This document shows, piece after piece, positions 42,088 through 45,694 of a stretch of 64,000 bases of DNA. Origin of the DNA: Chthonomonas calidirosea (GTDB taxonomy: Bacteria > Armatimonadota > Fimbriimonadia > Fimbriimonadales > Fimbriimonadaceae). Positions within the stretch are counted from its first letter, which is position 1. Each line of letters opens with the position of its first letter. Under the pieces are notes generated by a model. That model searched no databases. It was not told where the DNA came from and saw nothing but the letters and a program-made list of their open reading frames with translations. The stretch covers positions 310,001-374,000 of the forward strand of contig CAMCWC010000001.1 of the NCBI GenBank assembly GCA_945882415.1, given 5' to 3'. The translations under genes were made by a program, and so were the position numbers.

Positions 42088-43863
42088 TTGAGATCATTCC
42101 GCCGCACCCTGGAATTTCTCATGCCCTACCGGGCGCGAGTAATCGGTGCCGTTATCCTCACGTTGCTGGTTACGGTGCTGCAGATCGTGCCGCCCAGAAT
42201 TTACCAAGCCGCCATTGACGGACCGATCAAATCCGCCCTCCGCGACAAATCGGACGCGAACATCGCCGCCGCGAACACGACCTTGTTCTGGATCGCGATG
42301 GGACTCATTGCCGTCATCGCCGTCCGGAACATCTTCAGCTTCGTTCACAGCAACCTGCTCAACTGGATCGGGCATCGGTTCGTCTTCGATCTCCGCTTCA
42401 AAACCTGGCAGCACCTGCAACGCCTGAGCCTTGCCTTTCACAACCAGACCCAAACCGGTAAGATCATGGCCCGCATTACCGCGGACATCGAGCTCATTCA
42501 GGGTCTGATCCAGGGCCAGCTCGTCACGTTCATCAGCGACATCGTGACCCTCGTCACCGTCCTCGGCATGCTCTTCTTCCTTGAGTGGCGGCTCGCGACG
42601 GCCATTTTGCTGCTGGTCCCGTTCTACGTGGTTTCGTACCTGTTCTTCCTAAAGCACATTCGAGAAGTCAGCCAGGAGCAGCGAAAGTATTACGACGAAA
42701 TGCTCGGCAAATTGGCTGAGAAGATCGCGGGAATCCAAGTCGTCAAGGCGTTCGTCCGAGAAGACACCGAGCGCGAGAGCTTCATGGCTTCGGTTAGAAA
42801 AAAGTTTTCGGTGGACATGCGTCAGGTTCACCTAAACCGGCAGCTCGGCCTTGTTAGCGGCGCAATCTCCGCGCTCGGCACCGGCGCGGTCTATGCCTTC
42901 GGCGGCCAGATGGTGCAAAACGGCGAGATGACGACCGGAAAGCTGGTCGCCATGACCTTCTACATCGGCTTCATCTTTAACCCTGCCGTCCGGGTCGTCG
43001 ACTTTAACAACGCTCTCCAATGGGCGGTCAGCGCGATGGACCGCGTTTTCCAAACCCTCGACACTCGGCCAGAAATCGAGGATAGTCCGAACGCCATCAA
43101 CCTCCCGCCGATTCACGGCGTCGTCGAGTTCCGCGATGTCACCTTCGCCTACCAAGATGGTCGCCCGGTGGTTGAGGGACTCAACTTGACCGTGCAAGAA
43201 GGGGAAGTGGTCGCCCTGGTCGGTCCTAGCGGATCGGGCAAAACCACCCTAATGAACTTGCTGATGCGGTTCTGGGACCCCACCCGCGGGCAGGTCCTCA
43301 TCGATGGCCAAGACATCCGAGACGTAAGGCTAGAATCGCTGCGACGCCAGGTCAGCATGGTCGCGCAAGAGAACGTTCTCTTTAGCGTCTCTATCCTCGA
43401 GAACATCAAGTACGGCAAGCGGGACGCTACAGACGAAGAGGCCCTCGCCGCCGCGCGCACCGCCGACCTAGATAGCTTTGTCGAAACATTGCCGGACGGC
43501 TACGAGACGATGATCGGAGAAGAAGGCATTAAGCTCTCTGGCGGTCAAAAGCAGCGCCTCGCGCTTGCCCGTGCGCTCGTCACCGACCCAAGGATCCTCA
43601 TCCTCGACGACGTCACCAGCGCCCTCGATGGCGAAACCGAAGCACGCGTTCAAGACGCCTTGCGCCAAGTCATGCGCGGCCGCACGACCTTCATCATCGC
43701 TCACCGCCTTTCGAGTGTCGTTGCCGCAGATCGTATTCTCGTGATCGAAAACGGCAACATCGTAGACATGGGCACGCACTTCGAACTGATCGAGCGTCCC
43801 GGAATCTACCAAGAGACATACCAAGAACAGTTCCGGTCGGCGCTCGATATGGTCCGCGCCTGA
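42088..43863 (+). CDS. ABC exporter half-transporter (MsbA/multidrug type)
   Basis: A 591-residue fused membrane and ATPase protein that should export lipids, peptides or drugs as a dimer. About six helices occupy residues 15-310 (VIGAVILTLLVTVLQIVPPR, LIAVIAVRNIFSFVHS, FISDIVTLVTVLGMLFFLEW and others). The ATPase domain has Walker A GPSGSGKTT (379-387), the Q-loop VSMVAQENVLFS, the signature LSGGQKQR (483-490), Walker B ILILDDVTSALD and the switch IIAHRLSSV. In Walker B the catalytic Glu position is Asp508 (GAC), as in the degenerate site of heterodimeric exporters. The TTG at 42088 gives RSFRRTLEFLMPYRAR, the usual lead; the ATG at 42121 is an alternative. It stands just upstream of the long mraZ leader. 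Confidence 0.9.
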   Translation: MRSFRRTLEFLMPYRARVIGAVILTLLVTVLQIVPPRIYQAAIDGPIKSALRDKSDANIAAANTTLFWIAMGLIAVIAVRNIFSFVHSNLLNWIGHRFVFDLRFKTWQHLQRLSLAFHNQTQTGKIMARITADIELIQGLIQGQLVTFISDIVTLVTVLGMLFFLEWRLATAILLLVPFYVVSYLFFLKHIREVSQEQRKYYDEMLGKLAEKIAGIQVVKAFVREDTERESFMASVRKKFSVDMRQVHLNRQLGLVSGAISALGTGAVYAFGGQMVQNGEMTTGKLVAMTFYIGFIFNPAVRVVDFNNALQWAVSAMDRVFQTLDTRPEIEDSPNAINLPPIHGVVEFRDVTFAYQDGRPVVEGLNLTVQEGEVVALVGPSGSGKTTLMNLLMRFWDPTRGQVLIDGQDIRDVRLESLRRQVSMVAQENVLFSVSILENIKYGKRDATDEEALAAARTADLDSFVETLPDGYETMIGEEGIKLSGGQKQRLALARALVTDPRILILDDVTSALDGETEARVQDALRQVMRGRTTFIIAHRLSSVVAADRILVIENGNIVDMGTHFELIERPGIYQETYQEQFRSALDMVRA

Positions 43864-43871
43864 CCAGTTCT

Positions 43872-43926
43872 TCCCAGATTTTCCCAGTCCGCCGGTGTTT
43901 TCCCGGCTTTTTCCCAGCTTGGCCCA
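43872..43926 (-). promoter_or_regulatory. Array of TGGG-type direct repeats (candidate MraZ sites)
   Basis: Read on the minus strand, TGGG boxes lie at 43872-43876, 43882-43886, 43912-43916 and 43922-43926 with a CGGGA at 43901-43905. Spacers are 5, 14, 6 and 5 bases. TGGGN repeats with 5-base spacers are the published binding pattern for MraZ, whose gene begins 315 bases to the right. Confidence 0.6.
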
Positions 43927-44082
43927 GCATGGCCGCCAGTGCGTCTACATAAATGTCTACTATTTTTAGTCTAACTGGTAAACAAAGAGTAGTATTCGGA
44001 TAGGTTTACTCCTTAATGGCGGACCAACTTTTCCCAAATTTCCTCAGAAAAGAGGAAAATTTCCTTCCGCTAGACCAATGAT

Positions 44083-44097
44083 TCCCGTATAATCCCA
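44083..44097 (+). promoter_or_regulatory. TATAAT box flanked by a pair of MraZ-type boxes
   Basis: TCCCG TATAA TCCCA: two TCCCR boxes (minus-strand CGGGA and TGGGA) separated by exactly five bases, with TATAAT at 44088-44093 between and overlapping them. No good -35 hexamer is seen. If this is the mraZ promoter, bound MraZ would cover the -10 element. An imperfect inverted repeat (44036-44062) lies just upstream. Confidence 0.6.
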
Positions 44098-44241
44098 GCA
44101 GAAGGGTAAGGACTACGGATGGTCTGGAAACTTCGAAGCGGCGGGGTAACCCAGATACCGGGGCGGTGAGCAAGATGCGGAAGCCGTCCCAACACTTGAT
44201 ATTGGCACACGTTCAGATTTTTTAAGGAGTGGTGATTGTTC

Positions 44242-44745
44242 ATGGATCGAACAGAAATGGAAACGGATTTCCAGCACCACTTCGGAACTGACGACTCAGC
44301 CGTTGATGGTAAAGGGAGACTCCCGCTAAGTAAGAAGAAGCGAGAGTGGTTAGCCGACGGCTTCCGCTTCATGAAGGGGGATTTAGGCGTGCTCACTATT
44401 TATCCAGAATGGTCATTCCAGAAGAAGAAAAACTGGGTGATGTCATTTGACGAGCACAACGAAGGCCGCCAACTTTACCAAAGCATGGTTCTTGGAAGCG
44501 CCGAAGGCCCGTTCGTCGCAGATGGCGAAGGCCGCGTTGTAATTCCTTCCTCACTTCGAAGAGATGTACCTTTAGAAGGTGCCCTTATCCTTCGCGGCGT
44601 CGGTGAGTACATCGAAGTCTGGCCACTTACGGAATACGAAAAGTGGAAAACTGACCGCGAGAACTACAACCGAGCTTGGCGAGATTCCGTTCGCGAATCC
44701 ATCCGCATGATGAAGGCAGACGCCCTGCCGGGGAGCAGCAACTAA
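44242..44745 (+). CDS. mraZ: Transcriptional regulator MraZ
   Basis: DNA-binding protein that heads division and cell wall clusters and autoregulates them. The 167-residue protein has the two AbrB-like halves of MraZ: AVDGKGRLPLSKKKREWLAD near residue 20, and FVADGEGRVVIPSSLRRDVP near residue 90, followed by EGALILRGVGEYIEVWPLTE and the C-terminal helix YEKWKTDRENYNRAW. The repeated D-G-K/E-G-R motif is the hallmark. The ATG at 44242 is 12 bases after AAGGAG (44224-44229); a TTG at 44236 would have a better 6-base spacing and add two residues. The ~380-base leader carries candidate MraZ binding repeats. One base separates it from rsmH. Confidence 0.93.
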   Translation: MDRTEMETDFQHHFGTDDSAVDGKGRLPLSKKKREWLADGFRFMKGDLGVLTIYPEWSFQKKKNWVMSFDEHNEGRQLYQSMVLGSAEGPFVADGEGRVVIPSSLRRDVPLEGALILRGVGEYIEVWPLTEYEKWKTDRENYNRAWRDSVRESIRMMKADALPGSSN

Positions 44746-44746
44746 C

Positions 44747-45694
44747 ATGGAGCACGTTCCCGTCATGGTGCAAGAGATCATGTCTCACCTAGACCCGAAG
44801 CCCGGCAACGTCGTTGCCGACGGCACCCTCGGTCTTGGCGGCCACGCACTCGAGTTCTGCAAGCGAATCGCCCCCGGCGGACACCTCTTTGGGTTCGATT
44901 GGGACGAAAAGATGTTCGCCGAGGCGACAAATCGTCTTTCGGTCGTGAAGGACGTCAAAGTCACCTTGACCGCGCAAGACTTCCGCCAAGCCCCCGCCGT
45001 GCTGGATCGAAATCAGGCTCGCCCGAATGCGGTTCTCTTGGATCTTGGTCTGAATAGCGGGCAAGTGGACGACGCCGAACGCGGTATGAGCTTCCGAGAG
45101 GTTGGTCCTTTAGATATGCGCATGGACGTTCGGGTAGGCGAACCCGCCAGCGCATGGCTCAATCGAGCTACGCTGGACGAAATTGATAATGTCCTGCGAG
45201 ACTACGGTGACGAGCGCTGGGCCCGAGCGATTGCCAGAGCTATTTTAGCTCGAAGGAAAGAACAACCACTACGAACTACGGAAGATTTAGTAGAGTGCGT
45301 TCTGGCCGCTATCCCGGTAGGCGCACGCGATAAGCGACTTCATCCGGCCACCCGCACCTTCCAGGCAATTCGCATTTTCATCAATGGTGAGTTAGAGGAA
45401 TTGAGTGAAGCCATTGTCGCATTAGCCGAAAGACTAGCTGACGGTGGAGCCATCGCCGTGCTCAGCTATCACTCTGGCGAAGACCGCGTGGTCAAGGGTG
45501 CCTTTAGAGAATTAGCGAAAGAAGGGTTCCGTGAAGAGTTGCGAAAGCCGCAACTTCCAACCGATGCCGAAATCGCGCGCAATGCCCGAAGTCGAAGTGC
45601 TCGACTGCGAGTTCTGCGCAAGTTAGATCGTGAAAGTGTGGGTCAGCAGGAAGCTGACCGTGAGGAGACTCAAGATGAGTATCAAACTAATTGA
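44747..45694 (+). CDS. rsmH: 16S rRNA (cytosine-1402-N4)-methyltransferase
   Basis: S-adenosylmethionine-dependent enzyme that methylates the N4 of C1402 of 16S rRNA. The 315-residue protein starts MEHVPVMVQEIMSHLDPKPG and has the AdoMet loop VVADGTLGLGGHALEFCKRI, FGFDWDEKMFAEA, the family block NAVLLDLGLNSGQVDDAERG followed by MSFREVGPLDMRMD, then RTFQAIRIFINGELEELSEA and IAVLSYHSGEDRVVKGAFRE. Length and motifs are normal. The ATG is one base after the mraZ stop. Its 3' end overlaps the FtsL-like gene by 20 bases. Confidence 0.96.
   Translation: MEHVPVMVQEIMSHLDPKPGNVVADGTLGLGGHALEFCKRIAPGGHLFGFDWDEKMFAEATNRLSVVKDVKVTLTAQDFRQAPAVLDRNQARPNAVLLDLGLNSGQVDDAERGMSFREVGPLDMRMDVRVGEPASAWLNRATLDEIDNVLRDYGDERWARAIARAILARRKEQPLRTTEDLVECVLAAIPVGARDKRLHPATRTFQAIRIFINGELEELSEAIVALAERLADGGAIAVLSYHSGEDRVVKGAFRELAKEGFREELRKPQLPTDAEIARNARSRSARLRVLRKLDRESVGQQEADREETQDEYQTN

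Follow-up and report, generated by a model that had tools for sequence, protein, structure and literature searches.

MraZ is among the most conserved bacterial regulators, and its operators are, to our knowledge, known mainly from a few species, with the repeats placed after the -10 element. The MraZ operator of Escherichia coli at Pmra was reportedly described by Eraso et al. in 2014. In the E. coli K-12 sequence (NC_000913.3), the GTGGG repeats GTGGGAAATTGTGGGGCAAAGTGGGAATAAGGGG lie on the sense strand after the -10 with a period of 10. For the dcw promoter of Burkholderia cenocepacia (PmraBc), PMC7761207 describes four repeats with a period of about 10 nt to which MraZ binding has been shown, and cites MraZ as an octameric toroid. 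In Mollicutes, the mraZ promoter has direct repeats of AAAGTG[T/G] and is autorepressed (Fisunov 2016, cited in PMC8475190). PMC5089854 and PMC8307010 describe, for Rhodobacteraceae, a different arrangement: the UpsM/dcw 5' UTR of Rhodobacter sphaeroides (268 nt) has a terminator that yields an sRNA, dependent on Hfq, RNase E and StsR. Control through an mRNA leader is also known for CsrA, which activates flhDC through two sites near the 5' end, where it blocks RNase E, and represses glgC (PMC7652899).

The window (the whole stretch of 64,000 nucleotides analysed) comes from a genome of 3.36 Mb in 38 contigs (G000), and MraZ was sought in its 60 nearest relatives. The mraZ gene is located at 44242–44745 on the plus strand, with TTG at 44236 as another possible start, and is identified by the Pfam MraZ profile (8e-14) and by matches to MraZ entries of the PDB (1n0e, 9qlg). 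The Pfam profile alone covers only the second half of the protein; residues 10–141 align to 1n0e, relating it to solved MraZ across both halves. The Shine-Dalgarno sequence AAGGAG, which includes a GGA, is read at 44224–44229 (plus strand). The next gene of the dcw cluster, rsmH (mraW), follows at 44747–45694 on the plus strand (PF01795, 1.8e-84). Upstream of the mraZ region, an ABC-transporter gene ends at 43863.

Between these genes, a sequence-only reading of the window had proposed an MraZ operator of seven TCCCA/TCCCG boxes. Six are exact TCCCR (TCCCA at 43872, 43882, 43912, and 44093; TCCCG at 43901 and 44083), and the seventh, at 43922, proves to be GCCCA. The four gaps of 5 or 6 bases that it counted agree with start-to-start steps of 10, 19, 11, 10, 161, and 10, and its last pair does enclose TATAAT, the final T of the hexamer being shared with the second box. 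It had passed over a single TCCCA at 44032–44036 (minus strand), where G014, the sister genome, has a CCCCA-N5-TCCCA tandem. Every box lies on the same strand: the TGGG reading belongs to the minus strand and is thus antisense to mraZ. The proximal pair at 44083–44097 (TCCCG 44083 and TCCCA 44093, minus strand) straddles the -10 and is identical in G014. Two distal pairs, also on the minus strand, are located at 43872–43886 (TCCCA 43872 and 43882, spacing 10, both conserved in G014) and at 43912–43926 (TCCCA 43912 and GCCCA 43922, from the sequence and comparison with relatives). Box 43901 (TCCCG) lies inside a predicted terminator-like hairpin (GCCGG...CCGGC followed by a T-run; 43891–43907, plus strand), which probably ends the ABC-transporter transcript; in its G014 counterpart, the arms have changed and pairing, judged by eye, is still possible. 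Within this genome alone, the box count is barely above chance: the densest TCCCR spot on the plus strand is at 43872, with four per 60 nt, versus a maximum of 4 and a mean of 3.1 in shuffled windows, although TGGGN6TGGG is over-represented in the window (8 copies, two of them at the mraZ region, versus 1.9 in shuffles). It is phase and conservation across genomes that take the boxes far beyond chance.

The same spacing recurs upstream of mraZ in relatives, the check that the sequence-only reading had named. Upstream regions were taken from the relatives and anchored on the DxKGR motif of MraZ. In 42 such regions, from families f1 and f5, antisense CCCA pairs at 10 or 11 bp occur 28 times (shuffles 0.74, maximum 3), and a second peak of CCCA distances lies at 21–22 bp. 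Thirteen held-out loci, two of them near-identical, were found later through the RNA model described below and had not been used before; here the CCCA distance is 11 in twelve cases and 10 in one, harmonics appear at 22 and 20, and other short distances are almost absent. On the strength of the shuffles and the held-out genomes, the idea that the boxes arise from chance or base composition was rejected. The sister family f2 has sense GTGG repeats 11 bp apart (15 times versus 0.19 in shuffles), in the canonical place after the -10.

The usage is not uniform. Three genomes (G015, G001, and G018; loci L045, L031, and L048) have sense GTGG repeats at 10–11 bp over the -35 in place of antisense CCCA, so the box orientation has flipped inside one genus. 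Sense GTGG boxes are also used in G034, and clean tandems are absent from some relatives (G002, G003, and G027).

The -10 hexamer of the mraZ/dcw promoter, TATAAT at 44088–44093 (plus strand), lies at a distance from mraZ that is similar across genera and would place the transcription start near 44100. A weak -35, TTCCGC (44065–44070, plus strand), lies 17 bp before it; many genera have TTGCAT/TTGCAA, or a weaker -35, with a spacer of exactly 17 bp. With the -10 hexamers assigned by eye, the CCC of the boxes lies at -16, -5, and +6 from the first -10 base in G016, G017, G025, and G032, at -5 and +6 in G036, and at -4 and +6 in the window and G014. With exactly 17 bp between the two elements in many genera, the boxes thus cover the spacer and the last bases of the -10. 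MraZ on the boxes would be expected to exclude RNA polymerase sterically.

A second operator-like motif is located upstream of the -10; the sequence-only reading had noted neither this motif nor the conserved leader RNA described below. Comparison of f1/f5 genomes places two GTCTAC boxes at 43943–43960 (conserved boxes extend to 43975), and GTAGAC/GTCTAC sites occur in nearly all genomes of these families, mostly 60–150 bp upstream of the -10 and frequently in the form of a loose palindrome of 16 bp, GTAGAC-N7-TAC. The palindrome is not enriched across the genome (12 matches, against 26 with the reversed sequence as control), and a genome-wide regulon was rejected. The motif resembles an operator for a factor that is probably specific to mraZ.

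The mark of an MraZ operator, TGGG direct repeats about one helical turn apart at the mraZ promoter, is present here. Helical phase in the 42 regions and 13 held-out loci, the fixed register to the -10, and mraZ directly downstream strongly support the proposed operator, as far as sequence comparison reaches. As the assignment of the boxes to MraZ is comparative, they could instead serve another transcription factor that favours TGGG direct repeats, and the conserved GTAGAC motif makes it probable that at least one other factor acts in the region. We consider this improbable for the boxes themselves: TGGG/GTGG direct repeats at 10–11 bp before mraZ are the known MraZ signature, both in the E. 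coli sequence and in Burkholderia (PMC7761207), and f2 shows such repeats in the canonical place. MraZ as occupant is the most likely reading. The distal boxes have a different rival, namely that they are by-products of the terminator and of the GC-rich sequence flanking the ABC-transporter gene on its 3' side. The array begins directly after the stop codon of that gene, box 43901 forms the 3' arm of the terminator-like hairpin (and may thus have a double role), and most genomes have no distal array. Yet G014 keeps all five distal box cores, with 20/20 box bases identical versus 21/36 in the spacers (p=4e-4), at offsets from the -10 identical to those in the window and with no net indel. Distal tandems occur in 10/41 genomes (2.1 in shuffles, maximum 6), and in-phase chains of at least three boxes in G000, G014, and G017, versus 0.05 expected. 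The longest array seen, that of G017 (L047), has six in-phase boxes between -277 and -225 relative to the -10 and sits after what appears to be the same ABC-transporter gene. A by-product is unlikely on this evidence, and the comparison indicates that the distal array is under selection. About 160 bp separate it from the proximal pair, which would also suit a second promoter, one of the two roles that had been suggested for it; this we regard as very improbable, since the -10 at 44088 keeps a similar distance to mraZ in all genera and no sigma-70-like site was found at the array, a soft argument because the promoter search also overlooked the proximal promoter, owing to its weak -35. The ring shape of the MraZ oligomer makes the other suggested role, a DNA loop between distal and proximal boxes, plausible.

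Downstream of the promoter, a conserved folded leader, about 140 nt long, would form the start of the transcript. Hairpin 1 (44110–44125, plus strand; GGACUA-CGGA-UGGUCU) has a GGA in its loop, and GGA-loop hairpins are common to the relatives. The leader core (models R1/R2; 44136–44190, plus strand) rests on a covariance match and covariation and comprises two hairpins. Hairpin 2 is G-rich and, in this genome, degenerate; hairpin 3 (44160–44190, plus strand) has the stem GGGGCGGU/GCCGUCCC, an inner GCA/UGC, and the apical loop AGA, which in the alignment is NGGA in most relatives. The model started from a hand-chosen seed, from which a covariance model of six sequences and later a refined model were built. 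The covariance model found the leader at many further mraZ loci, and the top-scoring matches checked in blind whole-genome searches lie directly before mraZ. The window copy (44136–44190) scores E=3e-4 within mraZ loci and is the best match in its own genome, where whole-genome E-values are modest (0.006–0.009). With the refined model, the leader is present in at least 38/113 genomes of the order, a lower bound because the search filters lose weak matches; none was found among the other sampled genomes of the phylum. In 34 aligned copies, 96.1% of cells pair (about 40% in slid controls) and 14/16 pairs vary on both sides in a compensatory way, figures that lean towards structure because the alignment was fitted to the model. 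The structure emerged only through the hand-chosen seed and covariance search: the thermodynamic fold of a single leader was uninformative (z=-0.21), and a MAFFT alignment analysed with RNAalifold yielded no structure. Rfam 15 gave only chance-level matches (rimP at E=0.8, below the gathering score). We conclude that the leader is a previously undescribed structured RNA, its structure well supported, and a more novel element than the operator.

The weaker matches checked elsewhere in the genome (E from about 0.0115; L114–L117) adjoin no mraZ and look like chance, so a role as a separate sRNA or sponge was rejected. Additional MraZ-like genes in three relatives, L050 (G019:C43), L039 (G008:C1:333500-335100), and L035 (G004:C2), have no leader match.

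The loops suggest CsrA. In the loops of hairpin 3, GGA outranks every other trinucleotide, occurring in 32/41 genomes (9 in shuffles, maximum 16). The loops of hairpin 1 are also enriched in GGA (25/41, with 8.5 in shuffles, maximum 18), although GGG scores higher there, probably since the tested stretch reaches hairpin 2. Among the 34 copies, hairpin-3 loops contain GGA in 31 and ANGGA in 24. The common form GCANGGAUGC presents an ANGGAU loop, and the leader of G016 carries GCAUGGAUGC; an ANGGAN hexaloop and the SELEX sequence RUACARGGAUGU are published CsrA/RsmE ligands (PMC7652899). CsrA is encoded in 60 of the 61 genomes (at G000:C14:66299 in the window genome). The window and G014 have lost one putative CsrA site, as their hairpin-3 loop reads AGA; hairpin 1 in the window retains CGGA. 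Titles and abstract openings of papers mentioning both CsrA and mraZ gave no link between them. Hairpin 1 begins about 10 nt from the predicted transcript start, a position reminiscent of flhDC, and activation by stabilisation would be our first guess, with repression as the alternative.

The leader might otherwise be a riboswitch or the target of a ribosomal or other protein. The apical loop of hairpin 2, carried on a covarying stem (e.g., L046:513-530), is conserved as GGGGU/GGGGC; CsrA does not explain this loop, no tertiary or pseudoknot partner was found for it, and this genome has lost the hairpin-3 GGA and kept the stem. Against this, stem sequences vary freely while the GGA loops stay, no Rfam family matches, and no terminator or anti-SD switch was identified in the leader. 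Such a leader is a serious contender, which we nevertheless rate below an even chance; the GGA-loop hairpins of the leader are most likely bound by CsrA.

Taken together, we regard as probable an mraZ-rsmH dcw operon with an autoregulatory promoter, an auxiliary distal array, and a CsrA-bound leader. Since the last part of the -35/-10 spacer is occupied by one box and the final bases of the -10 by another, an MraZ ring on them would exclude RNA polymerase and repress its own operon; the distal array, some 160–220 bp upstream, would serve MraZ as an auxiliary site, perhaps providing further ring contacts or a DNA loop, and CsrA on the leader would add post-transcriptional control. A bolder version, in which the RNA family stands solely before mraZ in two families of the order, CsrA sets the dcw operon, and an inverted MraZ operator is combined with a looping distal array and a GTAGAC operator, is tentative and falls somewhat short of an even chance. 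If true, this three-tier switch would join nutrient or motility state to division.

Compared with the described systems, the operator appears real and, judging from the sequences, changed in orientation and position relative to both E. coli and the sister family. Like E. coli Pmra, the locus has TGGG direct repeats about one helical turn apart before mraZ and beside the -10, but there they are sense and downstream of the -10, and here they are antisense, lie over the spacer and the -10, and are joined by a distal array. The sequence-only reading was right to set the region apart from enteric bacteria, and the difference is sharper than it claimed, as strand and position both differ from E. coli K-12; the layout common to E. 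coli and Burkholderia, sense repeats downstream of the -10, was not found here. PmraBc shares a repeat array of about 10-nt period at the dcw promoter and differs in having a GTG-type motif and in its placement, past the -10 and across the start site; the available part of PMC7761207 describes neither a distal array nor a structured leader. The Mollicute site also consists of direct repeats at the mraZ promoter, but of another sequence. Inverted, spacer-fitted repeats in fixed register, together with a distal array, make the clade a natural experiment in DNA recognition by the MraZ ring. The leader resembles UpsM as a long structured 5' UTR before mraZ with post-transcriptional dcw control, although the excerpts of PMC5089854 and PMC8307010 contain no description of a GGA hairpin pair. 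With the flhDC and glgC leaders, it shares GGA-bearing sites in an mRNA leader; CsrA binding is proven there and predicted here, and the target here would be a cell-division operon. If CsrA binds, then in this understudied group a global regulator of carbon use and motility would be tied to the division operon.
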